From a virus, in IMG/VR virus record IMGVR_UViG_3300044701_002278, positions 1 to 35,927 of that record: a DNA stretch of 35,927 bases; one strand, 5' to 3'. Below the pieces are notes generated by a model. The model made no database searches. It saw only the letters and a program-made list of their open reading frames with translations, and was not told where the DNA came from. Both the position numbers and the translations under genes were made by a program. Of the stretch, positions 7,337-35,927 are shown piece after piece; the first letter of the stretch is position 1; every line of letters starts with the position of its first letter.

Positions 7337-7395
7337 CCAAGAAAACCCCCGAAATCCACACAGAACCTAATCACCTTGCGCACAGAACGCAAGAA

Positions 7396-8793
7396 TTAAA
7401 CCACACCCCTAATCCCACGCTTCAAAGGCTTACCCGCCACCCAGGCCGTCCCGCGACCGCCCACCAAAGCCGCCTGGCCGGCAAACGTCAGACACAACGC
7501 ATCCGCCAAGTCTGGCGACCTCAGGCCCCTCTTCTTCAGCCCGTCCTTACTCTCGACCACCACCTTGCCGGTCGACGTAAACGAATACCGCGGCGCCACC
7601 AGCTCATGCCTCAACGTCTCATCCTTGGGCAGCTTGACCGACCGCGTACCCAGCCAATCCTTCACGCTCAACCACAGCTCGTCCCTCAGCCGGTGGGCAT
7701 TAGGGTTCATGGCAGAACTCTCCGCCACATTCACGTCCCGCACATTCAAACCCATCTCACGCAGCCGGTCCGCCACCCCAGACCCCAAGCCAATCGTGTC
7801 CACACAGATCTCCGCCGGCGCATCCTTCTTGGCCTCATTGACCACCGCACCCACCGTCTGCATCAAATCCAAGCCACCCCAGTGCCGGATCTCCAACACC
7901 ACATTGCCCTTCCTCTTACACAAGGCCGTGCGGTCAGTCCCAAACCGCGCAACGTCTAAGCCATACACCAAAGGCTCCGTCACCCCCACCGTCACGTCCC
8001 GATCCAGCGCCCCATCCACCAATTCCGCCGGTATCAACGTGTCGTCGTCCGCCAGCGCGAACTCACCCAACACCCGGATCCGAAACGCATTGCTGCTCTC
8101 GCCATACGTCGCACCAATCTGCGAAATAAAATCCTTAGACACCAAAGGATTGTTCGCGCACGACACATGCATCCGATGCCAATCCTGCGCCAGGTCGTGG
8201 TGCGTCTTGTAAAACAGCCCGCTGTTGCGCGTCGGGTTACTGATCAAGATCGTGCTCGCACTATGCCCCGACATCGAACCCGCGGCCGCCTCAAACACCG
8301 CCTCCGGCACAGCCGAGGCCTCGTCGACCACCAGCAGCACATGCTCTGAGTGGACACCCGCCAGCGCCTCAGGCCGCTCGCTGCTGCTGGTCCTCACCGA
8401 GATAAAGCTGCTCTCCGGCGCGCCTTTCAACGCAATCCGATCGCTGAAGACCTCGAAACTATCCCGCAACACCGGCGGCAGCTTGTTCACCCAGGTCTTC
8501 AGCTCCGCATACAACGCATCGAACAACTGCGCAGCAGTGGGCGCCGTGACGACACTCTTCTGCGGATAACGCGTCGTCATGTGCCAGATCAAAGCCCAGC
8601 TGCAGGCCGTGCTCTTCCCCACCCCATGACCGGCACGCACACTCAAGCGCCGCTCGCCCCTGGCGATCGCACGCAGGAAATCCTCCTGCCAAGGCAACGG
8701 AACCGCGCCCAACACGTTCCGCACGAAAGCCACCGGGTCGTTCCGATAGGCCTCCAGAAAGCCTAGGAATTGGTTCTTGTCGGTCTCGCTCAT
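7396..8793 (-). CDS. terL: Terminase large subunit
   Basis: ATPase and nuclease of the packaging motor, 465 aa. The Walker A-like motif is VRAGHGVGKST (about 52-62), Walker B VLLVVDEAS (152-160) and a coupling motif lies around ISNPTRNSG (184-192). The RNase H-like nuclease domain shows acidic residues in YGLDVARFG (D280), CVDTIGLGSG (D332) and SPDLADAL (D428/D431). The start ATG 8793 overlaps the small terminase stop (ATGA). Length and motif order are normal for the family. Whether packaging is headful or site-specific cannot be read directly. Confidence 0.96.
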   Translation of the reverse strand: MSETDKNQFLGFLEAYRNDPVAFVRNVLGAVPLPWQEDFLRAIARGERRLSVRAGHGVGKSTACSWALIWHMTTRYPQKSVVTAPTAAQLFDALYAELKTWVNKLPPVLRDSFEVFSDRIALKGAPESSFISVRTSSSERPEALAGVHSEHVLLVVDEASAVPEAVFEAAAGSMSGHSASTILISNPTRNSGLFYKTHHDLAQDWHRMHVSCANNPLVSKDFISQIGATYGESSNAFRIRVLGEFALADDDTLIPAELVDGALDRDVTVGVTEPLVYGLDVARFGTDRTALCKRKGNVVLEIRHWGGLDLMQTVGAVVNEAKKDAPAEICVDTIGLGSGVADRLREMGLNVRDVNVAESSAMNPNAHRLRDELWLSVKDWLGTRSVKLPKDETLRHELVAPRYSFTSTGKVVVESKDGLKKRGLRSPDLADALCLTFAGQAALVGGRGTAWVAGKPLKRGIRGVV

Positions 8794-9500
8794 GCGCCGT
8801 CAGCCTTTTCTATTTTTGGCGCGGCGGCGCGCTTGGCGCGAGACGGGGGGCGGGGGGGGCGAAGTACCTTTTTTGGTGGGTCTGTAGACGGAGGGGTTGC
8901 CGCGCGCACGGGCGCCCCCCGGTGGGGGGCGGGGCCGGGGGGGTTCTGGCCGGCGGCCGCCGGATCCGGGCCGCCGATCGGCAGGCCAGGCGCGGTCGGG
9001 GCCGGGTCGGCCGGACCCGCGCTTTCACCGTGAAAGGTGGGAACATCAATGATATCAGTGGCTTGGCCCTCGATGTACCCGGTCTTCGTACCCGAGACCC
9101 TGCTCGCGAGCTCTTTCAGCGCCTCCAGGTGCAGCGTGTGCGTGTGCGTCACGGTCGCGTCGACCTGCGTCCGATCGCCGTAGAGCTTGGGAAGTAGCCT
9201 CGAGGCCGTCCATTTCTTCGCGTCGATCGCCACGCGGGCGACGTCGGCCGGGATCTCGCCCCGCACGGCCTGCTCGGCCAGGTCGTCGATCCGCTCGGCG
9301 TGCGCCAAGGCCCGCGACTGTATCGCGCGCGTGTAGTCCTCCTGGAAGGAGGAGTCCTCCGACAGCCATCTCCACGTCGTCGTGTGGTTTGGCATGTCGT
9401 CTTCGCGGCAGATGCTGGACAGAGACCGCCCTTCTGAGATGCGGGAGCAGATTTCCTTTAAGAGCTCCGGCGTTTTAATGCTTGGCCTTCCGATGGTCAT
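8790..9500 (-). CDS. terS: Terminase small subunit with Pro/Ala-rich tail
   Basis: Start ATG 9500 is chosen because it overlaps the preceding stop (ATGA); the longer frame upstream is a shadow. The 236-aa product begins TIGRPSIKTPELL and has a helix-turn-helix at about residues 10-55 (EICSRISEGRSLSSICRE, then TTTWRWLSED), followed by helical DDLAEQAVRGE and DAKKWTASRLLPK. This matches the DNA-recognition subunit upstream of TerL. The last ~70 residues are Pro/Ala/Arg/Lys-rich and encoded by very G/C-rich DNA (see the G-run element). It recognises phage DNA to start packaging. Confidence 0.92.
   Translation of the reverse strand: MTIGRPSIKTPELLKEICSRISEGRSLSSICREDDMPNHTTTWRWLSEDSSFQEDYTRAIQSRALAHAERIDDLAEQAVRGEIPADVARVAIDAKKWTASRLLPKLYGDRTQVDATVTHTHTLHLEALKELASRVSGTKTGYIEGQATDIIDVPTFHGESAGPADPAPTAPGLPIGGPDPAAAGQNPPGPAPHRGAPVRAATPPSTDPPKKVLRPPRPPSRAKRAAAPKIEKADGA
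8845..8947 (+). repeat. G-run tract inside terS (possible G-quadruplex DNA)
   Basis: On the + strand there are runs of six and eight G (about 8845-8859), then runs of six, four and seven G near 8932-8943. Four tracts of three or more G with short loops can be drawn. The matching C-runs encode the Pro-rich tail of the small terminase. This could simply be GC-biased Pro coding, or a structural element near a packaging site. No function is established. Confidence 0.5.
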
Positions 9501-13888: not shown

Positions 13889-14058
13889 TTCGGCGCCTCC
13901 GGCAGTGGCATCCAGTGCGTGGGCTTGAGCGTGTGATCGCCGTTGCTCCAGCTGAGGCTGAGGACGTTCCAGTAGGCGACGTCGGCGTAGCCGGCCTTGT
14001 CCCATACCAGCACTTCGGTGCCGTCTACGGGCGCGGTTCCGATCGGGCGCCAGGTCAT
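13885..14058 (-). CDS. Small DUF551-like protein (57 aa)
   Basis: ATG 14058 overlaps the HTH gene stop (ATGA), and the stop overlaps the resolvase GTG. The sequence MTWRPIGTAPVDGTEVLVWD followed by THWMPLPEAPK is the recognisable DUF551 pattern (W-x-P-I-x-T-A-P-x-D-G-T then HWMPLPxxP). It is common in phage early regions with unknown function. At 57 aa it is complete for the family. Confidence 0.85.
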   Translation of the reverse strand: MTWRPIGTAPVDGTEVLVWDKAGYADVAYWNVLSLSWSNGDHTLKPTHWMPLPEAPK

Positions 14059-14276
14059 GCTTTCTTGCCCTTCGCGATCTTTAGCGTCAGCCCGAGGACG
14101 TTGCAGTAGCGCAGCGCGGCCCTGAGGCTCACGTCGGTTCCTCTCGCCGCGGCGTACCAGTAGGTGGAATGAGAAAGGCCTGCCCTTTTGCATAGGTCTC
14201 TCTGCGTGATGCCCAAGGCCGTGCGCCGCTCCTCGAGAGCGGCGAACAGCTGTTGGGGGTTGTCAATGCTTGGCAT
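14055..14276 (-). CDS. Small XRE-family HTH regulator (73 aa), Cro-like candidate
   Basis: ATG 14276 with AAGGA upstream. A helix-turn-helix spans about residues 20-60: ITQRDLCKRAGLSHSTYWYA, then SLRAALRYCNVLGL, ending in basic KIAKGKKA. No effector or protease domain is present. It is the first gene after a promoter overlapped by a 17-bp operator, and heads the replication block. Its size and place suggest a Cro-like or secondary repressor that may bind that operator. Whether it or the 142-aa repressor is the main binder is open. Confidence 0.85.
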   Translation of the reverse strand: MPSIDNPQQLFAALEERRTALGITQRDLCKRAGLSHSTYWYAAARGTDVSLRAALRYCNVLGLTLKIAKGKKA

Positions 14277-14296: not shown

Positions 14297-14325
14297 GACA
14301 TAACCGCCTTGCGTTTTAGGCGCAA
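14297..14325 (-). promoter_or_regulatory. Promoter with overlapping 17-bp operator, upstream of the HTH gene
   Basis: The palindrome TTGCG-TTTTAGG-CGCAA occupies 14309-14325. Read leftwards, TTGCGC serves as -35 and TATGTC (14302-14297) as -10 with a 17-bp spacer, placing the start of transcription near 14290 and AAGGA shortly before ATG 14276. The same module, with matching CGCAAGGCGG spacer bases, recurs at 18803-18831. A repressor bound to the palindrome would cover the -35 and spacer. Confidence 0.78.
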
Positions 14326-14344: not shown

Positions 14345-15151
14345 TTACTCGGCGTAGGGCTCGACCTGAGCCCAGGCGGGGACGGAGATCTCGGTGATTG
14401 TGTCCGAGTAGAAGGCGGGCGCCGTGTCGGCTTGCTCCAGGGCGACGCGATAGGCGCGCGCTGCGCGTTCCATCAGCAGGCGCCCAGACTGCAGGCTGCG
14501 TGCGTCCAGGGTGTAGACGCCCACCGCGTAGGGGGCCTCGCTCTCGACCGCGATGAAGACGAAGCGGTCCAGATCCCAGCCCACGATCTCGCGGAAGCCG
14601 GCCGCGTAGTGCGCCGCCTGGACGTGATATTGGAAGCTTGCGATCTGCTTGGCGAAACCGTCTGGGCTGGCGTCGCTGCAGGTCTTGATGTCGAAGATCG
14701 CGCTGCCGGTCATGTAGTCGCAGCGTGCCTTACATGGCAGGCCGTACTGATCCCAGAAGAGGCTGACTTCGGGGTTGCCGTCGCGCAGGCCTTCGATCGC
14801 CACGGGATGCTTGCGCACCGAGGCTGCGATGGCGGAGGCCTTTTCGTAGGCCGTCTCGTCGACGATGATCTTGCCGGCGTGTTCCTGTTCAAACTCTTCC
14901 GCGGCCTTCTTGCCCACCGTCGTGCGCCGATCGAACTTGGGCATGACGGCGAACTCGTCCTTGAACGTGTCGGGCTCGAGGATCATCGCGTGCGTGAGCG
15001 TACCCAGGCGCATTGCGGCGGTGGGTTCGCGCGGCGTACTCTTCGATGAGATGTAGTGCGCCGGCGAGCGCAGCAGAAGCTTGGCGCCTGATGCGCTCAG
15101 GGCTTCGACTGCGTGGTAGTCACTTGCGGGCATCCCGATGTGAGATGGCAT
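14345..15151 (-). CDS. PD-(D/E)XK exonuclease, RecE/DUF3799-like
   Basis: A 268-aa nuclease. Start ATG 15151 (MPSHIGMPASDYH) has GAGAGGA upstream; the longer frame would overlap the membrane gene more. Motifs: LGTLTHAMILEP (~47-58) with the conserved His, then PCKARCDYMTG, SAIFDIKTCSDAS with the Asp and Lys of D-Xn-DIK, and QIASFQYHVQAAHY with Gln and Tyr. This is the order of exodeoxyribonuclease VIII-like/Cas4-like PD-(D/E)XK enzymes. It would resect dsDNA ends for recombination. No clear RecT or Red-beta annealing partner is seen nearby; the SSB-like gene is the closest candidate partner. Confidence 0.86.
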   Translation of the reverse strand: MPSHIGMPASDYHAVEALSASGAKLLLRSPAHYISSKSTPREPTAAMRLGTLTHAMILEPDTFKDEFAVMPKFDRRTTVGKKAAEEFEQEHAGKIIVDETAYEKASAIAASVRKHPVAIEGLRDGNPEVSLFWDQYGLPCKARCDYMTGSAIFDIKTCSDASPDGFAKQIASFQYHVQAAHYAAGFREIVGWDLDRFVFIAVESEAPYAVGVYTLDARSLQSGRLLMERAARAYRVALEQADTAPAFYSDTITEISVPAWAQVEPYAE

Positions 15152-15248
15152 TTTCTCTTTCCTCTCTAGCCATGTGCAGCAGAGCGACCAGGAGCATCCC
15201 GGCGGCAGTGCCAACAAAGGTTCCAATCACGAAGCAGAGCCAATTCAC
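15120..15248 (-). CDS. Small single-span membrane protein (42 aa, DUF3789-like)
   Basis: GTG 15248 overlaps the excisionase-like gene stop (GTGA). One hydrophobic helix, WLCFVIGTFVGTAAGMLLVA (about 3-22), is followed by a charged tail (AREERENAISHRDARK). The helix with GxxxGT spacing and short charged tail resembles DUF3789-type proteins often found in phage early regions. The gene overlaps the exonuclease start by 32 bp. The role is unknown. Confidence 0.7.
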   Translation of the reverse strand: MNWLCFVIGTFVGTAAGMLLVALLHMAREERENAISHRDARK

Positions 15249-15412
15249 TTTTTGCCTTCGACCATTGCCTGGATGTCGTTCTTGCGAATGAGGATCCGGC
15301 GACCGATGCGAAGAGCGGGAAAGAGCCCGGCTTCGATGTAGCTATAGAGGCTTCGCTTACTGATGCCAAGTAGCTTTGACGCTGCTGCAACAGAAATAAA
15401 AAGGGTTTCCAT
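15245..15412 (-). CDS. Excisionase-like HTH protein (55 aa, MerR/HTH_17 type)
   Basis: ATG 15412. The sequence FISVAAASKLLGISKRSLYS followed by EAGLFPALRIGRRILI and KNDIQAMVEGK is the standard HTH_17/excisionase-family pattern: a helix-turn-helix, then a basic wing. In temperate phages such proteins direct excision (Xis) or act as early regulators. It is divergent from the repressor gene across a 119-bp region, the position expected of the first lytic gene. It is not adjacent to the integrase, so a regulatory role is equally possible. Confidence 0.85.
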   Translation of the reverse strand: METLFISVAAASKLLGISKRSLYSYIEAGLFPALRIGRRILIRKNDIQAMVEGKK

Positions 15413-15531
15413 AGTGGTTTGTTGTGCGCGGATTGGGCATCTTGGGATCTAAGTACTATCCCGTGCAAGGGCGTGCGGTGAAAAGAGGCACATTGCGATA
15501 AGATCAGACGTAAATTGCGCTGGATGCACAA
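15413..15531. promoter_or_regulatory. Divergent switch region between repressor and excisionase-like genes
   Basis: This 119-bp region separates the start codons of two divergent genes. It contains TTGCG-CTGGATG-CACAA at 15515-15531, the genome's 17-bp operator with one mismatch in the right arm, ending directly before the repressor ATG. A second imperfect dyad, GGGAT-N9-ATCCC, lies at 15444-15462. No -35/-10 pair stands out on either strand. The layout suggests autoregulation of the repressor. Confidence 0.6.
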
Positions 15532-15960
15532 ATGAGCACGACTAGAAAACACGACAAAAACCACTGGGTGCGCGAAGGGCTGACTGCCAAGGGCTACACG
15601 CAGCGCGACCTGGCGCGTGCGTGGGGCGTGGCGGAGCCTTCCGTGTCGCGCTTCATCTCAGGCGAAGAGGGGGCGGATCCGCCCCTATCTCGTGCCGTCA
15701 CGCTTGCGGTAATGCTGGGGATTACTCTGGAAGAGGTAGCGCGGGGCTTAGGCTTAAGAGGTAGACGGGTTGAGCCTGTGGTGACGCAGGAGGCTGGTGT
15801 GCCTCCTGTCGGCACGTTCCGCATGGACGTGCTGGGCGAGGGGCGCGTGCGTGTTGTGTTGGTGCAAGACGTCGCGCCCGATGTTGCGTCGCAGCTGATC
15901 TCAGTCTTGGGCGGCTCGAGTGACAGTGGGCGCGTCCGTGACCGTAAGGCGCGGGCGTAG
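15532..15960 (+). CDS. CI-like XRE repressor lacking a peptidase domain (142 aa)
   Basis: One of only two clear + strand genes. The N-terminal HTH spans about residues 20-65: YTQRDLARAWGVAEPSVSRF, then GEEGADPPLSRAVTLAVMLG. The C-terminal ~55 residues (VGTFRMDVLGEGRVRVVLV, then PDVASQLISVL) form a short beta/helix segment that may dimerise. No Ser-Lys S24 protease motif is visible, so LexA-style self-cleavage is not expected. It diverges from the excisionase-like gene, with an operator-like site at its start codon. Its last 60 bases overlap the opposing 84-aa gene. It is the best candidate for the lysogeny repressor that binds the 17-bp operators. Confidence 0.84.
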   Translation: MSTTRKHDKNHWVREGLTAKGYTQRDLARAWGVAEPSVSRFISGEEGADPPLSRAVTLAVMLGITLEEVARGLGLRGRRVEPVVTQEAGVPPVGTFRMDVLGEGRVRVVLVQDVAPDVASQLISVLGGSSDSGRVRDRKARA

Positions 15961-16155
15961 GCCTTTGCCTTTCTCGATCGGCTTGTCTTCGGTGAGCGAC
16001 TTGTATTCGCCGCACCAGTAGGAGACCGCCACGCGGTGCGGCTGTGGGTAGCGGTGGCAGGTGCGAGATCCGCCCACCTGGCCCGCGGTGTAACGACAAT
16101 CGCCGCACGATGGTCCGCGCTTATTCAGCGCCGGCGCGTCGTGGTTGATGCTCAT
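15901..16155 (-). CDS. Small Cys4 putative zinc-binding protein (84 aa)
   Basis: ATG 16155 with GGGAGAAAAG upstream, overlapping the preceding stop (ATGA). Cysteines at 17, 20, 33 and 48 (SCGDCRYTAG, RTCHRYP, YWCGEY) form a C-x2-C-x12-C-x14-C zinc-ribbon-like pattern common in small phage early proteins. The C-terminal third is basic and its codons overlap the end of the convergent repressor gene by 60 bp. Function is unknown. Confidence 0.78.
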   Translation of the reverse strand: MSINHDAPALNKRGPSCGDCRYTAGQVGGSRTCHRYPQPHRVAVSYWCGEYKSLTEDKPIEKGKGLRPRLTVTDAPTVTRAAQD

Positions 16156-16526
16156 TTCTTTTCTCCCATTCTTTCAATCCATTCATAGCTAATGCTCTCG
16201 ATAAGCTTTGCCCACTCATCCTCAACACCATCAATGAACGTGACACCTTCACAATAAACAACGGTTTCAACATATCTGCCAATGGCTTCATTGAGTTTCG
16301 CTATGTGTGCTGATTGGCTTTGAGCAATACTCATCCACCGCTCATATTCTTTCTGAAGGAATATACGGTTTTGATCTACCACCTTCATCTCATGTTCAGC
16401 TGTGGCAAAGTCTTTGCGGAGCCTTTCGATTTCGTCGACGGCTTGCTCTAGTAAAGCGCCGTTATCGGCGGAGTATTCGTAAAACACACTCGCGGGGTGG
16501 CGCAGCCGGTCCACAATGTCGCTCAT
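16152..16526 (-). CDS. Coiled-coil early protein (124 aa), MSDIV[D/E]RLR family copy 1
   Basis: ATG 16526 overlaps the 72-aa gene stop (ATGA). It begins MSDIVDRLRH, shared with the 140-aa protein at 16738-17160, and both continue to a [DE]EIE[RK]LR segment. Residues ~25-80 look like a coiled coil (LEQAVDEIERLRKDFATAEH). The C-terminus ends GEKK, with the Shine-Dalgarno for the next gene embedded in those codons. Such proteins are frequent in phage early regions and have no assigned role. Its codons look less GC-rich than the surrounding genes. Confidence 0.78.
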   Translation of the reverse strand: MSDIVDRLRHPASVFYEYSADNGALLEQAVDEIERLRKDFATAEHEMKVVDQNRIFLQKEYERWMSIAQSQSAHIAKLNEAIGRYVETVVYCEGVTFIDGVEDEWAKLIESISYEWIERMGEKK

Positions 16527-16741
16527 TCCTTTTCTCCCAGCGCCGCGCGGGCGTACACGTCGGGCGGATCTTCGTTCTCACCTTCCCACGCCTGGGCTTG
16601 CGCGGCCTTATCGCCCCATTCTGCGGCTTTGTCTTGCGTTGGTTCATACCCGATAGTCAGGATCTCGTTGCCGCGCATGACCGCGGCCATCCAGAGGTCA
16701 CGCGCCGGGTCAAACCCGACGACGATCTGAAGATCGCTCAC
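16523..16741 (-). CDS. Hypothetical 72-aa acidic protein with GTG start
   Basis: GTG 16741 overlaps the preceding stop (GTGA), preceded by GGAGAAAAG. The product starts VSDLQIVVGFDPARDLWMAA and has a strand-rich first half (VMRGNEILTIGYEP), then an Ala/Glu/Trp-rich acidic second half (AAEWGDKAAQAQAWEGENED), ending GEKE. I do not recognise the family. It sits between the two MSDIV-type paralogues. Confidence 0.7.
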   Translation of the reverse strand: MSDLQIVVGFDPARDLWMAAVMRGNEILTIGYEPTQDKAAEWGDKAAQAQAWEGENEDPPDVYARAALGEKE

Positions 16742-17160
16742 TGCTTTTCTCCTGCTTCGATGCGGTCTCTTTCCTCGTCGAGAATTGAGTTGATGAACTC
16801 TTCGTGCTTGAGCCCTTCCAGGAATAAGACACCTTCGTATCCGTAGATAGAAGCGGCCCACTCACAAATCGCCGCCCGCAGTTTTTCGATTTCGTCCTTA
16901 AACGCATCACGCTCGACAATACAGCCAGTATCAACACGAAATTTAATTAGCCGCTTTATCGCTTCCGCAGGCGTTTCATTCGGTCCTATGGGTTCCTGGC
17001 TCCACAGCCCGCCCTCCATTGGGGTTTTTTCTGTGAGCGCTGCATTAATCGCATCCCGCAACTTTTCGATTTCGTCGGCCCCATCTTCTGCCGCGTTGAT
17101 TATTTCGTCGGGGCATTCAGCGGTTTTAACGGCGCGAAGCCGTTCCACGATGTCGCTCAT
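16738..17160 (-). CDS. Coiled-coil early protein (140 aa), MSDIV[D/E]RLR family copy 2
   Basis: ATG 17160 overlaps the preceding stop (ATGA). It starts MSDIVERLRAVK and carries GADEIEKLRDAI and DEIEKLRAAICEW repeats of the same EIEKLR heptad, then VLFLEGLKHEEFINSILDEE, ending GEKQ. It is a paralogue of the 124-aa protein two genes on: the N-terminus and the late (V/T)(L/F)(F/I)(L/D)G segment correspond. Function is unknown; it is probably an early accessory protein. Confidence 0.78.
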   Translation of the reverse strand: MSDIVERLRAVKTAECPDEIINAAEDGADEIEKLRDAINAALTEKTPMEGGLWSQEPIGPNETPAEAIKRLIKFRVDTGCIVERDAFKDEIEKLRAAICEWAASIYGYEGVLFLEGLKHEEFINSILDEERDRIEAGEKQ

Positions 17161-17333
17161 GCGCCCATCTCCTTCTGCGGCAGGAATAGCTTGCGCGCGC
17201 GTTTAATGTGCGGCGACATTTCCTGCGCTGTCGTCAGCGTCTCGATCGTCTGCTTGATCCGCGCCGCGCCCCAGTGATCGCCCTCGCGCTCTGCGATCAC
17301 CAGGTTGTGCTCGAGCCTCTGCAGGAACGTCAT
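17157..17333 (-). CDS. Hypothetical 58-aa helical protein
   Basis: ATG 17333 shares a base with the preceding stop (TGATG), and the stop overlaps the next ATG (ATGA). The sequence MTFLQRLEHNLVIAEREGDH followed by IKQTIETLTTAQEM and IKRARKLFLPQK suggests two or three amphipathic helices. It has no Cys or membrane span. It is not recognised; its coupling to both neighbours supports it being real. Confidence 0.65.
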   Translation of the reverse strand: MTFLQRLEHNLVIAEREGDHWGAARIKQTIETLTTAQEMSPHIKRARKLFLPQKEMGA

Positions 17334-17563
17334 CACAGCTGACCTCCCAAGGTTTCGCGTGCGATCGTCTTCATCTTCATGGCCGTGGACCAGACGACGG
17401 AAGGCGGCGGCATGTGGCCGGCGTCGTCGGTGAGCTCTGCCATCGCGATCGCGTGCAGGCCGGTGCGCAGGCGGCCGTTCTCCTCGAGCAGGAGCCGCGC
17501 TTCGGCCTTCACCTGGACGAGCTCGGCGGTCACGCTGCTGGTGCTGTGGGCGTCGATTTCCAT
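17333..17563 (-). CDS. Hypothetical 76-aa coiled-coil protein
   Basis: ATG 17563 with AAGGA eight bases upstream; the longer frame above lies in a structured non-coding gap and a neighbouring gene. The first half (SVTAELVQVKAEARLLLEEN) forms a likely coiled coil. The second half has GHMPPPSVVWSTAMKMKTIA. There is no recognised domain. Its leader contains the alternative hairpins at 17586-17651, so it may be post-transcriptionally regulated. Confidence 0.68.
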   Translation of the reverse strand: MEIDAHSTSSVTAELVQVKAEARLLLEENGRLRTGLHAIAMAELTDDAGHMPPPSVVWSTAMKMKTIARETLGGQL

Positions 17564-17585
17564 CTTGGGTTCCTTGTTCTGGGGG

Positions 17586-17651
17586 CCTCCGCCGGCTGCT
17601 AAGGGGGAGGGACTTGGCAAACCGGCGGAGGGTTCCGCCACTACGGCGGAA
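17586..17651 (-). promoter_or_regulatory. Alternative hairpins in the leader of the 76-aa gene
   Basis: Four arms share the core CCGCC/GGCGG: CCTCCGCCGG (17586-17595), CCGGCGGAGG (17622-17631), TTCCGCC (17633-17639) and GGCGGAA (17645-17651). Arms 1 and 2 pair over 10 bp and arms 3 and 4 over 7 bp. Alternatively arms 2 and 3 pair (GGCGGA with TCCGCC, 4-nt loop), which excludes both. The element lies in a 101-bp gap between genes of an otherwise overlapping operon, just before a Shine-Dalgarno. This resembles an attenuator or RNA switch. Confidence 0.6.
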
Positions 17652-17664
17652 GGCGTGGAGGGTC

Positions 17665-17922
17665 TCAGCCCTCGAGCTCCTTGACGACCAATGTGGCGTA
17701 TCCCGCGATGTCGCGCCAGTGGTCGATCTCGTGCGGGTTGCCGTGTAGGGCGCGGCTGATCTTGTTCGCGATCATGTCCAGGGCCTCGCGCTGGTAGGGC
17801 GTGAGGCTGTCCCATCCGTCAGGGCAGCGCATCGCGCGCTTCATGTTGTGCGACCAGGTGGCCTGCTCCTTGTAGGGGCCGTGGGTCTTGCCGCGTTCCT
17901 CGAGGATGTTCGAGATGCTCAT
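17665..17922 (-). CDS. DUF6378-like early protein (85 aa)
   Basis: ATG 17922 overlaps the preceding stop (ATGA). The text MSISNILEERGKTHGPYKEQ, then REALDMIANKISRALHG and DHWRDIAGYATLV, is the family pattern of DUF6378: ILEERGxTHG, then EALDMIAxKIxRxLxGxxxxxDHWxDIAGYATL. Members are common in phages. The His/Asp-rich helices recall all-alpha NTP pyrophosphatase-like folds, but that is a family-level guess. It is complete at 85 aa. Confidence 0.85.
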   Translation of the reverse strand: MSISNILEERGKTHGPYKEQATWSHNMKRAMRCPDGWDSLTPYQREALDMIANKISRALHGNPHEIDHWRDIAGYATLVVKELEG

Positions 17923-18110
17923 GCGCGTTGCTCCATGGCTTTGGCTTCCAGCGCGGCCAGCTGACGGCCCAGCTCGCCCAGCTGCTGGTGCAGGCGGAAT
18001 GCTTCGTGGCTTTCGGGGTGGGCCTGCTTGAGAAACTGCTCGAGCACGTCGATGCGCGCGCGGATCCGGCCAGGCGTTTCGGGCCTGACGATGTGCATCT
18101 GCTTCTTCAC
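17919..18110 (-). CDS. Hypothetical 63-aa coiled-coil protein
   Basis: GTG 18110 is chosen because it overlaps the membrane-protein stop (GTGA), the junction style used throughout this operon; ATG 18098 is an alternative. The sequence GRIRARIDVLEQFLKQAHPE then LHQQLGELGRQLAALEAKAM forms two helices separated by a turn, an antiparallel coiled-coil look. The stop overlaps the next ATG (ATGA). Family unknown. Confidence 0.68.
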   Translation of the reverse strand: MKKQMHIVRPETPGRIRARIDVLEQFLKQAHPESHEAFRLHQQLGELGRQLAALEAKAMEQRA

Positions 18111-18214
18111 AGGACGATCGCTCCCACCACAAGAATGAGCAGGATCACGGCGATGAAGCCGATGGTGCCGAGGATCGCCTCGACCCAAAATTTCGGCGCT
18201 TTGAAATCTCTCAT
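18107..18214 (-). CDS. 35-aa single-span membrane peptide
   Basis: ATG 18214 with a strong Shine-Dalgarno (GGAGGAAGAC). A short cationic start (MRDFKAPKFWVEA) precedes one hydrophobic helix, ILGTIGFIAVILLILVVGAI, ending at Val-Leu. This is a complete small membrane protein. Its stop overlaps the next GTG (GTGA). The role is unknown; superinfection or holin-type functions are conceivable but unsupported. Confidence 0.72.
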   Translation of the reverse strand: MRDFKAPKFWVEAILGTIGFIAVILLILVVGAIVL

Positions 18215-18225
18215 GTCTTCCTCCT

Positions 18226-18516
18226 TCAGAGCGCGCTGCAGGACGCGCAGCTGCGCAGATTGCTGTGGTAGTCCAGATACCGTTCGCCGGCGTGAATGGG
18301 CCCTGAGCAGTGCCAGCATGTCCAGCCCTTGCGCGCGGTGCGCTCGACCGGCTCTGGATAGTCAAAGCCCTCGGCAACGAAGAAGCGGTCTTTCGGGTAG
18401 CCCGTCTCCATGTCCCACAGGTAGTCCTGGGCGTTGTCGGGGTTGTAGAAGGTCCGCATCATCTGTTGGGGGCCGTGGCCCCCAATCTCTCTGCATACCT
18501 GCCAGATCTTGGGCAT
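18226..18516 (-). CDS. Putative zinc-binding protein (96 aa, two CxxC)
   Basis: ATG 18516 with GGAGGAGG upstream. CxxC pairs occur at 67-70 (WTCWHCSGPI) and 90-93 (SCASCSAL), a treble-clef or zinc-ribbon pattern at the C-terminus. The first 60 residues (MPKIWQVCREIGG, then YLWDMETGYPKDRFFVAEGF) look like a small mixed domain. I do not recognise the family. It lies near the start of the early leftward block. Confidence 0.75.
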   Translation of the reverse strand: MPKIWQVCREIGGHGPQQMMRTFYNPDNAQDYLWDMETGYPKDRFFVAEGFDYPEPVERTARKGWTCWHCSGPIHAGERYLDYHSNLRSCASCSAL

Positions 18517-18534
18517 GTCAGGCCTCCTCCTGAC

Positions 18535-18756
18535 TTACGACTGACCGACCAGCGCGGCCGGGTCGGTGGCTTCGCGATACATAGGGGAGCTGACGTAGAA
18601 CTTCGGCTTGCCATTGCGCACAAGAACGCCGATCGCGGGATTGGCAGCAAGCACTGAAGCGATCCTCTTTTGCTCGGCTACCACTGCGTAATCACGGCGG
18701 CTGCGCTCGATGCGAGCTTCTGTTACTTGGCGGTAGGTCTTGGGGGTAATGCTCAT
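18535..18756 (-). CDS. Hypothetical 73-aa protein, first gene of the early leftward operon
   Basis: Three in-frame ATGs lie at 18768, 18762 and 18756. ATG 18756 is preferred: GGAG lies six bases upstream, and the integrase leader has the same arrangement. The product begins MSITPKTYRQVTEARIERSR, is helical and basic, then has IGVLVRNGKPKFYVSSP, a short beta hairpin, ending GQS. No domain is recognised. It is the first gene after the operator-promoter at 18803-18831 and therefore probably expressed early after infection or induction. Confidence 0.72.
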   Translation of the reverse strand: MSITPKTYRQVTEARIERSRRDYAVVAEQKRIASVLAANPAIGVLVRNGKPKFYVSSPMYREATDPAALVGQS

Positions 18757-18802
18757 TTCCATCTCCATTGCTCCCTTCGCCCCGATCGGCGTCGGTGAGG
18801 CA

Positions 18803-18831
18803 TACCTAGCCGCCTTGCGGACTAGACGCAA
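18803..18831 (-). promoter_or_regulatory. Early leftward promoter with overlapping 17-bp operator
   Basis: TTGCG-GACTAGA-CGCAA (18815-18831, arms extend one more base each side) overlaps a leftward -35 TTGCGT, with TAGGTA (18808-18803) 17 bp downstream as -10. The CGCAAGGCGG spacer bases are shared with the HTH-gene promoter. It would drive the block of small genes from 18756 leftwards and be shut by a bound repressor. Confidence 0.75.
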
Positions 18832-18891
18832 GAGGGAAAATGCACCCCATGAAAAAAAGATTACGGCCCGACGGAAGGCTAGGAAACCGCC

Positions 18892-18920
18892 TTGCGTGCT
18901 AGACGCAATCCCACTATTGT
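18892..18920 (+). promoter_or_regulatory. Integrase promoter with overlapping 17-bp operator
   Basis: TTGCG-TGCTAGA-CGCAA occupies 18892-18908. On the + strand TTGCGT (18892-18897) and TATTGT (18915-18920) form a -35/-10 pair with a 17-bp spacer, the best promoter match in the window. Transcription would start near 18927, about 21 bases before ATG 18948. Binding of the palindrome would block the -35, tying integrase expression to the same repressor as the lytic promoters. Confidence 0.8.
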
Positions 18921-18947
18921 GCGGGGTACAAACCAATGGAGATGGCA

Positions 18948-20027
18948 ATGAAGGTGACCAAATTTGAGCGTTCCCCTGGCGTCTGGCGGATCCGCATCGA
19001 GACCAAGGACGAGGCCGGTCAGCGGAAATTCAGCACGGAAACGCTGAAGGGATCAGAGATCGACGCGGAAGCGCGGCGCATCGAGATCCTCAAGAGCCAC
19101 CGCGCCGGCGACCTGGTGCAGGTGACAGACGACACCGTGAAGCAGCACTGGACCCGCTGGCAGGCCAAGCGCGTCGCGCTGAAGGCGATCTCAGAGCTCA
19201 CGGCCCAGGGCCAGGCGGTGCTGATGGCCCCCTTCCTGCGCGACTACGGCGCCCGCCCTCTTCGCTCCATCACGGGCGACGACATTGAGGCCTTCTACCT
19301 GGGCCGCATCCGCCAGGTCGCGCCCGGCACGATGACCGTCACGCACCACCACCTCAAGGCCCTGTTCAACCAGGCCGTGGAGGCCGGCGTGCTGACCAAG
19401 AACCCCATGAAGAAGGTGGCCGCGCCCAAGGGCGAGAGCGATCCCCGCAAGCCCCTCGAGAAGCGCCATATCAAGGCCCTGCTGGCCTATGCGGCCGACA
19501 AGCCCTTCCTGTCGCGCATGCTCCGCCTGGCGCTGCACACCGGCATGCGCCGCGGCGAGATGTGCGCCCTTCGCTGGTCCGACGTCGACCTCGAGCTGGG
19601 CGTGATCAACGTCTCCCGCACGATCGTGCGCATCGGCACGGTCGAGTACGAGAAGAAGCCCAAGACCAAGAAATCCATCCGCTCGATCCGCCTGCCCAAG
19701 GTTCTGATCGAGGAGCTGCGCGCAGCTGCCCAGGCGCCCAACCGCCCGGTCCTGGTCACCAAGTGGGGCGATCGGCCCACCCTGTCCTACATGACCAGCG
19801 CCACCAAGGACGCCTTGCGCGCCATCGGCCTGGACGAGGGCTACTGCCTGCACTCCACCCGGCACAGCCACGCCACCCACCTGCTGCGCGAAAAACTGCC
19901 GCTGAAGGCGATCTCTGAGCGCCTGGGCCATGCCAACGTGGAAGTGACCCTGGCGGTCTACGCCGGCGTCCTGACCGGCGACGACCAGGCCCTGGCGGAC
20001 AGCATTGAACGGGTAATGGCGGCGTGA
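18948..20027 (+). CDS. int: Tyrosine recombinase integrase
   Basis: A 359-aa phage integrase for site-specific insertion into the host chromosome. The SAM-like core-binding domain lies at about 55-145 and the catalytic domain at about 160-350. Catalytic residues: R201 (HTGMRRGE), Lys in the PKTKKSIRSIRL hairpin, H302 and R305 (HSTRHSHATH), H328 (LGHANVE) and nucleophile Y338. ATG 18948 is preferred over 18936 and 18942 because GGAG sits six bases upstream and the predicted transcript starts near 18927. The complete active site suggests it is functional. It lies alone on the + strand with the candidate attP just downstream. Confidence 0.95.
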   Translation: MKVTKFERSPGVWRIRIETKDEAGQRKFSTETLKGSEIDAEARRIEILKSHRAGDLVQVTDDTVKQHWTRWQAKRVALKAISELTAQGQAVLMAPFLRDYGARPLRSITGDDIEAFYLGRIRQVAPGTMTVTHHHLKALFNQAVEAGVLTKNPMKKVAAPKGESDPRKPLEKRHIKALLAYAADKPFLSRMLRLALHTGMRRGEMCALRWSDVDLELGVINVSRTIVRIGTVEYEKKPKTKKSIRSIRLPKVLIEELRAAAQAPNRPVLVTKWGDRPTLSYMTSATKDALRAIGLDEGYCLHSTRHSHATHLLREKLPLKAISERLGHANVEVTLAVYAGVLTGDDQALADSIERVMAA

Positions 20028-20235: not shown

Positions 20236-20338
20236 TTGACTTGAGGGCGGGAAGCTTGCCAATGTGCCGCGTGGCGTTCTTTCTCTGTCCTCCCTAATGC
20301 AGCAACCTCCCCGGCCCCTCAAAAGGCCGGGGTTTTTT
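20236..20338 (+). ncRNA. Candidate small RNA with anti-Shine-Dalgarno segment
   Basis: TTGACT (20236-20241) is a good -35, while the -10 region about 17-18 bp downstream (CCAATG/CAATGT) is weak. A transcript from about 20270 would end at the intrinsic terminator, giving about 70 nt. It carries UCCUCCCU (20288-20295), complementary to Shine-Dalgarno sequences. Trans-acting sRNAs with exposed CCUCC motifs are known in Alphaproteobacteria. No open frame explains the stretch. It may be phage-encoded or captured from a host locus at attP. Confidence 0.4.
20309..20338 (+). terminator. Rho-independent terminator
   Basis: CCCCGGCC (20309-20316) pairs perfectly with GGCCGGGG (20325-20332) over an 8-nt loop, and is followed by six T on the + strand. 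It ends rightward transcription from the integrase or the candidate sRNA just before the convergent 665-aa gene. On the - strand the hairpin is present but lacks a U-tract. Confidence 0.9.
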
Positions 20339-20339
20339 C

Positions 20340-22337
20340 TTAGCGCCTCTGGATACCCAGGGTCTCTGCGAACGGATCCGCCAAAAGGCCAGGCACCAGC
20401 TGCCGCGGGCCGACGCCGTAGGCGGCAGGGGGCTGCAGTAGCCGGTCGATCTCGCGCAGCCTGTTCGGCAATTCTGCTCCGGTTCCGAAAAGATAGGGTC
20501 GCAGCGCCTCATTGGTTGCGTTCACGCGGGCGTTGGTGACGCCCATAGAACCCCTCTGCAAAGCCCTCTGCAGGGCGCTGGCGCCGGCAGCGCCAATGCC
20601 GGATTGAGCCGCCTCGCGCAGGATACTCATACCGCCCGTGGCAGCGTTGAAATCCGCTTGCTGGGCCTGCATCGGAGCCGTGGCCGAGATGTTGCGCGTA
20701 GACCGATTGGTGGCGGCCATCTGCGCTTCGCGCTCGATGCCCTGCAGCAGGGCATCAGCAGCGCGGCGCGCCTCTTCGGGCGATCGAGCGGCACCAAGAG
20801 CGGCCTCAATTTGCGCCCGCACGTTGCCGCTGCGGAAGGCAGAGCTGATGTCGCGCCCTTCAATGCCCCGGCCGATGCGCTGATTTACAGCGTCGAGAAC
20901 GCCCACGACAAAGCCCTCGCGCTCCGATGCCGTCATCTTGGCAATGTCGCGGACGCTGGTTTCGGCGCGCTCATTGAAGATCCGCTGCCCAGAGCGCATT
21001 GCATCCATGACGGCAGTCGGCCCAGACCATGCCTCGCGCGCCTGGCGGTACGGCCCCGGCAGCTGATCGGCTTCGGCCAGGATGTCCTGCTTCAGGTTCT
21101 GAGCCCGGCGCCCTTCGGAAGAAACGCGCCCCGTGATGTTGTCCGTTTCCCGCTCAATAATGCGGTCGAGGCCACGCTTGACCATGTCCACATCACGCAG
21201 CGTGTAGTCCCCCACGACCGTGCGAGTACCTTGGGCATTGGGCGCCACAAGATTGGGGAAAATCAGGCCTTCGTAACGTGCTGCATTCCGCGCCTCATCA
21301 AACGCTGCGTCTGGTGCGCGGAGCAGTAACTGATCAAGGCGGCCTGACCGGGCGGGGATTTCGCCAATCTGGGCATAGAGAGGCGCCGCGCTTGCGGAAC
21401 GCGCCGCCTGCAGCGAATCGAGATTGTCGAAGAAGTTACCGCGTGGGCCGCCAAGCGCCTCTTCAAAGCTTCCCATGATGCGCGGCCCTTGCTGGTTGGC
21501 GCGCTCTTGAAGCTGTTCTGCGATCTGCTGGCGGTTCGCGCCAGGCATATTTGCAATGCGCCGCGTTTCCGCCGCGACAGCAGAACCGGGCATCAGGTCG
21601 GCCAGGATCTCAGGCCGCACACCACCCATATCTTGGGTCTGACGGGCAGTGTAGGCCGCGGCAGCGTCTGTAGGCGTCGTGCCGCTTTCTTCGATAATCC
21701 CCTGCATGCGGCGCGCGGCACGCTCTTCTGGTGACGCAAAGGTGCGCCGCACCACGCCACCGACGACAGGCGCAGCTGCGCCGATCGGGCCGCCGACCAG
21801 ACCGCCTGTGAGGGCTTCTTCCGCCGCGCGATCAAGCCTTGCGCTGGCACTACCCTCGCCTTTCAAGAACCCTTCGACGCCGCCTTGAGCAGTGCCTACG
21901 GCAGCCCCCTGCGCAGCGCCTTGTGCTACGCGAGCAGCAAGAGGAGCGGCGCGAGCAGCGACCACGGGGGCTGCAGTGCCGCCGCTCATAAACAGAGCAC
22001 CAGCTGCAGGCAAAATACCGCCGGCAATTTCAGCCGCAACCGTCTGACCTGGCCGCTCCTGCGCGGTCACAGCCATCCGACGACGGACCTCCTCAAGCGC
22101 CTGGTCGTAGGTTTGGTTGCCCAGGCGCGACCGAAAGAAGGCTTCGACCTCGTCACCCGCCCCCATCAGCAAGCCTTGCCCTAAGCCGGAGCGCAGCAGC
22201 ACGTCGGCCACGAAAGACGACTGAGGCTGCATGCCCAATTCAGCGCCACGCCGCGCCACGGCGGCCGCCTGCTGTCTCCCCCCGGTCATTGGCGGGAGAG
22301 CGCGGAGTTGTTCTAGGAGATCAGGTTGGTCCGCCAT
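20340..22337 (-). CDS. Large ejection/internal virion-type protein (665 aa)
   Basis: Starts ATG 22337. Residues ~85-190 are a Gly/Ala-rich hydrophobic region (AAEIAGGILPAAGALFMSGG, then ARVAQGAAQGAAVGTAQGGV) that could insert in membranes. The remaining two thirds are Ala/Arg/Gln/Glu-rich helix. It is the last gene of the leftward late operon, after two other large helical proteins, the place where podoviruses keep proteins ejected with the DNA (as P22 gp16/gp20 or T7 gp15/gp16). Homology to any of these is not visible by eye. Assigned by composition and position only. Confidence 0.75.
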   Translation of the reverse strand: MADQPDLLEQLRALPPMTGGRQQAAAVARRGAELGMQPQSSFVADVLLRSGLGQGLLMGAGDEVEAFFRSRLGNQTYDQALEEVRRRMAVTAQERPGQTVAAEIAGGILPAAGALFMSGGTAAPVVAARAAPLAARVAQGAAQGAAVGTAQGGVEGFLKGEGSASARLDRAAEEALTGGLVGGPIGAAAPVVGGVVRRTFASPEERAARRMQGIIEESGTTPTDAAAAYTARQTQDMGGVRPEILADLMPGSAVAAETRRIANMPGANRQQIAEQLQERANQQGPRIMGSFEEALGGPRGNFFDNLDSLQAARSASAAPLYAQIGEIPARSGRLDQLLLRAPDAAFDEARNAARYEGLIFPNLVAPNAQGTRTVVGDYTLRDVDMVKRGLDRIIERETDNITGRVSSEGRRAQNLKQDILAEADQLPGPYRQAREAWSGPTAVMDAMRSGQRIFNERAETSVRDIAKMTASEREGFVVGVLDAVNQRIGRGIEGRDISSAFRSGNVRAQIEAALGAARSPEEARRAADALLQGIEREAQMAATNRSTRNISATAPMQAQQADFNAATGGMSILREAAQSGIGAAGASALQRALQRGSMGVTNARVNATNEALRPYLFGTGAELPNRLREIDRLLQPPAAYGVGPRQLVPGLLADPFAETLGIQRR

Positions 22338-22352
22338 GTGTGCCTCTCGATT

Positions 22353-23858
22353 TCAGGGGCCGGTGTAGGGCTGAACTGGAACGCCTGATCCCGGTTGAGG
22401 CATCAGACGAGAAAGCTCCGCACGCCTGCGTTGATAGGCTTGAAGCGCCGGTGCCGACAAGGCTGATGGATCAATCCTGTCGAGAGCCGCCATGTCTGCG
22501 CTGTTGATGATTTCTGGCGTCAGGCGGCGCGAGATATCAGTGCGCTGGCGCATCTGCGTGCGTTCACCAAGAAGCTCAGGGTCTCTTCCATCTTGGACAA
22601 TGTTGTCGACATTAAGCTTGTACCGATCAGCCAAGCCTCTGTACCGCTCAACAGTCGAGCCGAAATTGTCCATTTCTTGGAAGAACCGTTGGCGGCCAGC
22701 GTTCACAAGCTGCTGGCGCGCGGTGTCAGAAAGCCTGCCACCGCCGGTCACCGTATTGAACATCGCCCGAATGCTTTCGGGTACACCTGCCGCATTCTGT
22801 GCCGTCGCCGCTTCGCCACCCGTGACCGTCGAGGTCGGGTCGTAGACCTTCATCAAAGACAGAACCAAAGCGATATCCGATGCACCCTCTCCTTGGCGCG
22901 CTAGATCCATCATCGTGCGGTAGGCTGTTTGACGGTCTAAGAATGGAACCGCTCTCTTGTCGAAATCATCGCGCAACGCGTTTTCACGCGTGAAAGATTC
23001 GCCTTCTTGTTTCTCGCGACGATCAATGACCTGTTGGTTGATGCGCATCCAATCCGACATGGTTCGCGCCATCGGCCGATAAAGGGCTTCCTGTTCTGGG
23101 GTTAACGCCCAGCCCGCGGGCCTTCTAGTTGGAGGTGCAATCGTCCCCTCAGTCGCAGGTGCTGTCGCTGACGGCGCAGTCGGGGGGGGAGCCAGAGGCG
23201 AAGCGGGGGGTGCTGAAGTACCATCTGCAGAAGGGGGAGCGATCGCAGGAGCTGTTGCCCTTGGTGCCGTACCCAGCAAACCAGGAAATGCTTGATTGAA
23301 GGCTTCGTCGGCCGCCTGATTTCTCACAAGAGCATTTTCGGCTTCTTGCGCTTGTGCGGCCGTAAGCCGTCCAGAGGCAACGGCCTGCGCGATCTGAGCC
23401 CTGATCAGATCCGCTTGTGCAGGATCGCGCGACAGACGCGAGACTTGGACCTGCCTGAGCGCATCGCTCATTGCTCGCGTTGTCATGCCGGCAAACTGCG
23501 AAAGATCAAAACCAGTCTGGGCCTTGAACGCCTCTGGGTTCTTCCTGAGATCGTCTAAACGCTTCAGCTCTTGGGCTTCACCGCGACGAGCCTCCATCTG
23601 CGCTGTCATGAGCCGCCGCTGCGAGGCGTTGTAGAGATCCGTATTTACACCCGAGGCCGCCTGGCCCAGCTGGGAGAAGATCTGCGCGCGCTGCGCCGGC
23701 ATGATGGGCTGGCCGGCCGCGAGTAGCGTCGCGCTGATGTTCGCCAGCGCATTGACCGCCGCGTCGCGCACGTCGGCCTTAGGAACACCGTAGCGCGGAT
23801 CCAGCTGCGCCATCTCGTTTGGATCGCCGCCGGTGAAGAAATCGAGAAGACCCACCAT
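22353..23858 (-). CDS. Ejection/internal virion-type protein (501 aa)
   Basis: ATG 23858. The N-terminus is MVGLLDFFTGGDPNEMAQLD. Residues ~30-195 are Ala/Gln/Arg-rich helix, ~200-245 a Pro/Ala/Thr linker (APPASPLAPPPTAPSATAPA), and the rest helical with a QQLVNAGRQRFFQEMDNFGS segment. No enzymatic motif is evident. It is located between the lytic-transglycosylase-like protein and the 665-aa protein, forming a three-gene ejection set. The GLLDFF start resembles those of marine podovirus internal proteins. Function is inferred from neighbours. Confidence 0.75.
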   Translation of the reverse strand: MVGLLDFFTGGDPNEMAQLDPRYGVPKADVRDAAVNALANISATLLAAGQPIMPAQRAQIFSQLGQAASGVNTDLYNASQRRLMTAQMEARRGEAQELKRLDDLRKNPEAFKAQTGFDLSQFAGMTTRAMSDALRQVQVSRLSRDPAQADLIRAQIAQAVASGRLTAAQAQEAENALVRNQAADEAFNQAFPGLLGTAPRATAPAIAPPSADGTSAPPASPLAPPPTAPSATAPATEGTIAPPTRRPAGWALTPEQEALYRPMARTMSDWMRINQQVIDRREKQEGESFTRENALRDDFDKRAVPFLDRQTAYRTMMDLARQGEGASDIALVLSLMKVYDPTSTVTGGEAATAQNAAGVPESIRAMFNTVTGGGRLSDTARQQLVNAGRQRFFQEMDNFGSTVERYRGLADRYKLNVDNIVQDGRDPELLGERTQMRQRTDISRRLTPEIINSADMAALDRIDPSALSAPALQAYQRRRAELSRLMPQPGSGVPVQPYTGP

Positions 23859-33584: not shown

Positions 33585-34201
33585 TAGTAGAACCTCCTGG
33601 TGCGAGCCACCAACGGAGAGCCGCTGGTGAGCGATTTCTGGGCTTCATCATTGAGCGCCTGCACGCGCCCGCTGTAGAACGAACCAAACACAGGAATGCG
33701 CTGATCGTCCACAAGAAAAGGCGCGGCATGCGTCAGCGCGCCATAGAGGTAAACATCCGGCGCCTTGGTCAGCAGCCAGTTGGTCGTGTTGCTGTCGGAA
33801 AGGGCCGGGATCTTCCCGTAGTAAATCATCTCGATGTCAACGTCGTCAGACGGCGACGGCACGAGCTCGATCGCGCCATTCATGAGCGAGTAGGCGGCGA
33901 CGCGCTCATAGCGCCGCTCCTTCACGATGATGTCGGCCTCGTCCAGCGTCACAAAACGCAGGGGGCTCGTACCGTCGACGATCTGCAGGTTGATGGCTTC
34001 AAGCCAATCGCTGGGCAGCTGCACGAACTCGTTGTCGCTCGTCGCCTCGGCGCGAACGATCTGCTCTCGGCAGCGCAGTCGCGTGTTCAGATCTGCCTCG
34101 CAGAACTGAATAAACATCGGGATCTGCGCCGTCAGATCCTGACGGTTCAGATAGTCCGCGATCGAGCTCTGGAGCGTCGCGTAATTCGTGATCGTCGCCA
34201 T
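33584..34201 (-). CDS. Head-tail adaptor protein (205 aa)
   Basis: ATG 34201 shares a base with the preceding stop (TGATG). The sequence TNYATLQSSIADYLNRQDLT, then QIPMFIQFCEADLNTRLRCR, LPSDWLEAINLQI, IEMIYYGKIPALSD and LLTKAPDVYLYGALTHAAPF is characteristic of the family annotated as phage adaptor protein, a helical ring protein beneath the portal comparable to P22 gp4 or T7 gp11. Position after the capsid gene fits. It connects portal to nozzle. Confidence 0.88.
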   Translation of the reverse strand: MATITNYATLQSSIADYLNRQDLTAQIPMFIQFCEADLNTRLRCREQIVRAEATSDNEFVQLPSDWLEAINLQIVDGTSPLRFVTLDEADIIVKERRYERVAAYSLMNGAIELVPSPSDDVDIEMIYYGKIPALSDSNTTNWLLTKAPDVYLYGALTHAAPFLVDDQRIPVFGSFYSGRVQALNDEAQKSLTSGSPLVARTRRFY

Positions 34202-34527
34202 CAGCTTTTCATCCAGCTCGTTCTAAAAGGTTGCGCCTCTTCGCTCGAAAGCCACTTACGCATAGCGGGCCGATCGTCGAGGATGCCCCTCTGCTTGAGA
34301 TCCAGATAGACCATCATCGGAAGGCTCGCGACCTTCACCATGTCGCCGCTCTTCTGCGTGCGAGAGGTCTCGTTCATCTCGGCCCTGGCGCGCTCTGCAA
34401 TAGTGTCGATCTCGCAGGTGGTCTCGAACACCAGCTTCTGATCAGACGTTATGTGCATTTTCTGCAGCGTTCCGGTCAGGCTGTCGTAAGCCAGGTTGAA
34501 CGAAGCAGGAGCGTATTCGTCAGCCAT
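34201..34527 (-). CDS. Hypothetical 108-aa protein between capsid and adaptor genes
   Basis: ATG 34527. Mixed charged helical protein: DQKLVFETTCEIDTIAERAR, then LPMMVYLDLKQRGILDD and PAMRKWLSSEEAQPFRTSW. The motif [DP]..[ML]RKWL...[ED]...FRT at the C-terminus recurs in small proteins after capsid genes of aquatic podoviruses. The role is unknown; head completion or capsid accessory is a contextual guess. It is separated from the capsid gene by a strong hairpin. Confidence 0.75.
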   Translation of the reverse strand: MADEYAPASFNLAYDSLTGTLQKMHITSDQKLVFETTCEIDTIAERARAEMNETSRTQKSGDMVKVASLPMMVYLDLKQRGILDDRPAMRKWLSSEEAQPFRTSWMKS

Positions 34528-34547
34528 TTGCGTTTCCTACACAAGCT

Positions 34548-35566: not shown

Positions 35567-35927
35567 TTATCTCCTGTTATCGAGTAGACCGAATAGCCGC
35601 GCCGCATCTTCGGCACGACCGCTTGCTTTGAGACGCTGTCTCATTCGCTGGACGTCGGTCGCCTGTTTCGGAGAGGAAGCATTCGACCCGGCCCTCATTG
35701 GCTTCGGTCCTTGGCCCTGCGTGGGCTTTGGCCGGTTAGCCATAAGAGCGTCGTATCGACGCGCCTTTTCAAGCACTAGAACCGCTCGAGGGTCATACGC
35801 TTGCGCCAATTCTTCTTCTGAATAGCCGATCGTCTGGCCATACTCGCGAAGGTTATTGCGCGCCGCGTTCCACTTAGCCTGGTCCTTCCACTCCGGCATC
35901 TTCTCGAGCAGGAACTGACGTCCCTCC
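35567..35927 (-). CDS. Scaffolding protein, C-terminal part (gene begins at left end)
   Basis: Continuation of the gene that starts at ATG 803. The frame is open to the window edge, and the segment encoded in the terminal repeat is identical in amino acids to the left copy. It ends ARLFGLLDNRR at TAA 35567. The C-terminal ~60 residues are basic, with Arg/Lys/Pro and a predicted helix (DVQRMRQRLKASGRAEDAAR), as scaffolds often have for coat-protein binding. The AGGAGATAA that ends the gene serves as the capsid gene's ribosome site. Confidence 0.85.
   Translation of the reverse strand, partial: EGRQFLLEKMPEWKDQAKWNAARNNLREYGQTIGYSEEELAQAYDPRAVLVLEKARRYDALMANRPKPTQGQGPKPMRAGSNASSPKQATDVQRMRQRLKASGRAEDAARLFGLLDNRR
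35787..35927. repeat. Right copy of 141-bp terminal direct repeat
   Basis: Matches bases 1-141 except at 35789 (a for t) and 35801 (t for c). The two synonymous differences show that the copies come from slightly different molecules or that the assembler collapsed population variants. Confidence 0.93.

Follow-up and report, generated by a model that had tools for sequence, protein, structure and literature searches.

A palindrome recurring over phage promoters as the probable operator of a 142-aa XRE-type lysogeny repressor

A palindrome, TTGCG-N7-CGCAA, recurs over predicted promoters in the window, the whole 35,927-nucleotide (35.9-kb) stretch of IMG/VR virus record IMGVR_UViG_3300044701_002278 that was analysed, and its recurrence is confirmed. 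Comparison with related phages indicates, with good though not full confidence, that the palindromes are the operators of the phage's own lysogeny repressor, a 142-aa XRE protein encoded at 15532-15960 (+ strand). The window is gene-dense, with 8.6% intergenic DNA by the gene set of this analysis, and carries terminase, RuvC, primase/helicase, exonuclease VIII, excisionase and integrase genes.

Six exact copies are present in the window, against a mean of 0.06 in dinucleotide shuffles, and six were reached in 0 of 100 shuffles. The pattern read backwards had no match in the window. Four copies lie between genes (7376, 14309, 18815 and 18892) despite the small intergenic share (P = 7e-4), and two lie within genes (1517 and 28720). 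An earlier note on this DNA had placed copies at 14309-14325, 18815-18831 and 18892-18908; these positions are correct, while the site at 7376-7392 and the two genic copies had been overlooked. The inner bases, said there to converge on CTAGA, do so at two of these three sites and read TTAGG at the other. The copies at 1517 and 28720 were ruled out as operators, being genic and without a promoter. A probable counterpart of the former in the record of relative L026 is accounted for by the protein sequence.

At each intergenic operator the TTGCGY arm forms the -35 element and a hexamer starting with TA follows after exactly 17 bp, as the earlier note had observed for 14309, 18815 and 18892. TA at +17 was found at 4/4 intergenic operator sites and after 0/100 non-operator TTGCG words on both strands. 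The centre of the palindrome is at about -27 relative to the predicted promoter. A protein bound at this position would block polymerase, which fits a repressor and not a classical activator. A generic scan of the window for sigma-70 consensus promoters found none, and promoters were therefore called from exact register and conservation only.

The operator TTGCGTGCTAGACGCAA at 18892-18908 overlaps the predicted integrase promoter TTGCGT-N17-TATTGT (18892-18920, + strand), called by register and conservation, ahead of the gene for a 363-aa tyrosine integrase (18936-20027, + strand). A strong terminator-like hairpin with a T run is present at 20309-20332, between the integrase gene and a convergent gene ending at 20340. 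The second operator, the exact palindrome TTGCGGACTAGACGCAA at 18815-18831, lies in register with the predicted leftward early promoter PL, TTGCGT-N17-TAGGTA (18803-18831, - strand), which would serve the leftward early genes 18768-15901. Transcription from PL (15901-18803), unless terminated, would run antisense through the repressor gene (15532-15960) and on into the excisionase (xis) and exonuclease genes; transcriptional interference with the repressor gene is possible.

The operator TTGCGTTTTAGGCGCAA at 14309-14325, identified by palindrome, register and relatives, lies between the gene for an exonuclease VIII-like protein upstream (14345-15151, - strand) and a 73-aa HTH/RuvC/primase operon. 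The predicted promoter TTGCGC-N17-TATGTC (14297-14325, - strand), called by register, would drive this replication operon, the first gene of which (14055-14276, - strand) encodes a 73-aa XRE/HipB-like HTH protein (HTH-73). The fourth operator, TTGCGCACAGAACGCAA at 7376-7392, is recognised by its palindrome and conservation. It lies between the terminase large subunit gene terL directly upstream (7396-8793, - strand) and the next leftward gene, over the predicted late promoter TTGCGT-N17-TAGGTT (7364-7392, - strand; register).

A variant copy, TTGCGCTGGATGCACAA at 15515-15531, abuts the ATG of the repressor gene (15532), as had been noticed earlier; L011 has TTGCGCCCGATGCACAA at the equivalent place. 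Judged by this position, autoregulation of the repressor is probable. The copy had been described as carrying one mismatch, a label that probably does it less than justice: CACAA occurs at the conserved integrase promoters of relatives, where the third-group site is TTGCGTCTAGCGCACAAG or a close variant, and is thus probably an accepted arm. Another TTGCG-N7-CACAA variant, at 34528-34544, covers the start and ribosome-binding site of the leftward gene 34201-34527, with an offset from the start codon equal to that of the copy at the repressor gene. No orthologue of this site was seen in the record of L026.

Relatives of the window phage form three groups: L005-L009, which are near-identical, a second group (clade B; L010-L012 and L020-L027) and a third (L032-L050). 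Repressor identity is 81-83% in the second group and 63-64% in the third where the protein is present. The HTH-73 and integrase sites were found in all three groups (for integrase, clades A, B and C), and many members also have the terL site. In diverged relatives these three sites keep their orthologous places with altered inner bases. The terL-adjacent operator is conserved in L025, L026, L032, L037, L044 and L045; its inner bases vary freely across relatives (TTCTGTG, TCTGTGG, TTGGTGC, TTGAGGA, TTACACG) without any change in either arm, the -35 or the distance to the -10. At the integrase promoter, the -35, the spacing and TATTGT/TATTCT are retained in clades A and C; clade B retains the operator, with CTATCC as the hexamer at +17. 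At the PL site of clade A/B relatives the -35 arm is constant and the other arm carries one change (CGTAA, CGTCA). A single change in this second arm was seen in L005, L008 and L011, and the arm is broken in most clade A/B relatives. In L045 and L042-L043, of clade C, an extra degenerate half-palindrome (TTGCGCCCTAGGCG...) is seen roughly 25 bp ahead of the main HTH-73 operator, which suggests that tandem operators may exist there.

The candidate repressor has an XRE HTH domain (PF01381, 31.2 bits against a cut-off of 23) at residues 11-72, with a predicted recognition helix at 35-43. AlphaFold2 gave a five-helix HTH followed by a small beta-beta-alpha C-terminal part of about 45 residues, with two strands and one helix (mean pLDDT 74.7, nine sequences). 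Lambda CI and other S24 repressors undergo RecA-induced self-cleavage through a C-terminal S24 peptidase domain. No Pfam match to this domain was obtained for the 142-aa protein, which leaves cleavage of the lambda type unsupported, and a look at ten early proteins turned up no induction protease. The hits of a PDB structure search were generic HTH proteins only (DdrO, C-proteins, 434), all with E values of 1e-3 or higher. In the bacterial genomes searched, only distant XRE proteins were found, hence no host is indicated. The repressor gene lies in a lysogeny module, with the gene for an excisionase-like 55-aa HTH protein (15245-15412, - strand; TIGR01764 above cut-off) divergent from it at 15412. 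The module keeps one gene order across clades A and B as well as L044, L045 and MW202496.

phiM5, MW202496, MJing1 and L013 encode repressor homologues that share about 45% identity and resemble the 142-aa protein in the recognition helix; sites accompany those of phiM5, MW202496 and MJing1. phiM5 has TTGTG-N7-CACAA at 23171 (upstream of the integrase gene) and 34411 (upstream of the repressor gene) and TTGTG-N7-CGCAA at 43261. MW202496 has an exact site at 27342, just upstream of the repressor gene, and one at 35794 after terL, TTGTGT-N17-TATTAT. MJing1 has seven TTGYG-N7-CRCAA sites, five of them with their centres between genes (intergenic share of the genome 4.7%; binomial P 4e-6), and no homologue of the 73-aa protein. 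Conversely, the 39.7 kb of MW202711 (terL 80% identical, syntenic 73-aa protein, no repressor) contain no site, whatever the spacing, and no site was found in the records of L028 and L031 (73-aa protein 54-59% identical, no repressor). The earlier note had left the choice between the two HTH proteins undecided; these distributions favour the 142-aa protein. That one regulator would control integrase, the leftward early block and the HTH/replication operon, as proposed there, is the best reading and has comparative support; its own gene is probably included, and the late promoter after terL, overlooked before, joins the set.

The strongest competing explanation has the 73-aa protein binding the sites, instead of the repressor or alongside it, and acting on the same operators in lytic growth in the manner of Cro. 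One of the sites lies directly ahead of its gene, its HTH motif shows strong conservation, and it occurs in nearly all site-bearing relatives, including those without the 142-aa repressor. In lambda, CI and Cro use common operators. However, it is absent not only from MJing1 but also from L063, which has one site; its presence in MW202711, L028 and L031 is accompanied by no site in their records; and its identity falls to 30-40% in clade C, with no change in the operators there. A part for this protein is hence plausible but, on balance, somewhat less probable than its absence.

Several relatives retain sites in the absence of a repressor. L026, L033, L035, L037, L046 and L049 have no repressor homologue anywhere in their records and keep two to five N7 sites; L033, L035, L037, L046 and L049 carry the integrase gene. 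The second arm in repressor-less genomes is broken in L028 and L046 and kept in the others. In L026 a natural deletion (8516-8930) removes the repressor gene together with the 5' portion of xis, and the integrase gene and three conserved operators remain; L026 is probably a virulent derivative. This loss resembles the natural repressor deletions known in integrase-carrying relatives among cluster A mycobacteriophages, such as D29 and MissWhite (PMC6550527). Recent loss of the repressor in these phages would explain this, as would use of the sites by a further protein, or the 142-aa protein may not bind them at all. Recent loss and continued use by a Cro-like 73-aa protein fit the data alike. 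Among repressor carriers, L061 (repressor 64% identical) has only a weaker TTGCG-N7-TACAA site, L063 a single site, and L104 (36%) none.

The half-sites occur at two spacings. Across all loci, which are partly redundant so that the counts are descriptive, TTGYG/CRCAA pairs number 71 at a spacing of 7, 25 at 5, three at 6 and one at 8. TA at +17 is present at 24/128 N7 and 5/45 N5 oriented sites, and at 0 for the other spacings tested. N5 sites flank the MJing1 repressor gene. The phiM5 late promoter site at 2612, after terL and the next gene, is of the N5 type (TTGTGG-N17-TATTTC); L049 has an N5 site in place of N7 at PL (6649); and L101, a distant repressor relative, has three N5 sites (4014, 5166 and 5582). 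The window has no N5 site. TTGYG-N5-CRCAA was recorded at 2612, 39647 and 43499 in L085 and at 8363, 8877 and 9005 in L088; N5 sites are often intergenic and sometimes in exact promoter register. It is conceivable, though rather doubtful at present, that one repressor family in phages of very different hosts reads the half-site TTGYG as N5 or N7, and not N6 or N8, directly on integrase, early, replication and late promoters, and that spacing and choice of arm determine in what order the integration, replication and late genes are freed from repression.

Could the element be a phage promoter class only, with a TTGCGT -35 and a conserved spacer read by host or phage-modified polymerase, and no operator at all? 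Every conserved site of the window family is indeed a promoter with fixed 17-bp spacing, and both arms persist in relatives without the repressor. Against this, the element is palindromic, its arm spacing alternates between 5 and 7 while the -35/-10 spacing remains 17, and no -10 is found at +17 for the copy at the repressor start and for several phiM5 and MJing1 copies. Moreover, two orthologous promoters of L028 retain the TTGCGY -35 with the second arm lost. We regard this explanation as quite unlikely. Binding by a host regulator instead of a phage protein is less likely still: the sites track a phage gene family through phages of Sinorhizobium, Microcystis and unknown hosts, with 57-71% G+C, and a related phage that lacks the repressor gene has none of them. 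A chance or coding-driven origin, which the copies at 1517 (probably kept for its protein sequence) and 28720 might suggest, is negligible for the set and ruled out for the four intergenic sites by the shuffles, TA at +17, intergenic placement, exact promoter register and recurrence at orthologous places.

The proposed operators share features with several known systems. Like lambda CI, an XRE-type HTH repressor, the 142-aa protein would use 17-bp operators lying over promoters; in lambda, however, OL and OR are clustered and tripartite, and the integrase promoter is driven by CII and is not a direct CI operator. The earlier note had called an integrase gene at the repressor operator unusual compared with lambda, which is fair; the arrangement is not unique, as phiM5 has a palindrome just upstream of its integrase gene and BPs offers a further case. 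phiM5 (MF074189) encodes a homologous repressor, gp48 (47-49% identical), and a terL product 71% identical, and has TTGTG-N7-CACAA/CGCAA upstream of the integrase gene, of the repressor gene and in other intergenic regions; it differs in that its arms are mostly TTGTG/CACAA, some of its sites are 5-bp spaced and its late site is N5. It has been described as temperate (PMC10386132) and listed as virulent in another paper (PMC12429752). No operators described for phiM5 were found in the literature. In mycobacteriophage BPs, a single repressor acts on four promoters and in five regulatory regions, and an operator sits between the -10 and -35 elements (PMC4557955). Its gp33 is similar in being one repressor with few dispersed operators at several promoters, and different in its 12-bp palindrome with a variant half and in integration-dependent immunity, with attP inside the repressor gene and the integrase gene cotranscribed with it; in the window phage the integrase gene lies 3 kb from the repressor gene and has its own predicted promoter at 18892. 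Cluster A (L5) phages also have many repressor sites along the genome, but L5 stoperators are asymmetric, number 20-30 per genome and are mostly not at promoters. The C repressor of Rhizobium phage 16-3 has operators ACAA-N4/N6-TTGT with two spacings, a parallel to the N5/N7 sites that we treat as a lead only.

The sites are best described as the putative operator set of a new phage repressor family with a logic that is already known. The operator and its repressor family appear undescribed so far, and the two spacings are possibly a new twist. In the model that we prefer, a dimer of the 142-aa repressor would sit across the -35 hexamer and the adjoining half of the spacer, keeping RNA polymerase off. 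In a lysogen, occupation of the operator at 18892 would thereby silence the integrase gene, that at 18815 the leftward early block, that at 14309 the HTH/replication operon and that at 7376 the late genes beyond terL, and the variant copy at 15515 would probably curb the repressor's own synthesis. With these sites, an uncharacterised repressor family of temperate LUZ24-like phages, including the cultured Sinorhizobium phage phiM5, gains an operator code that can be tested. The model predicts direct repressor control of integrase and late genes, and the site pattern helps to spot relatives that have lost their repressor, such as L026, and that should behave as insensitive or virulent variants.
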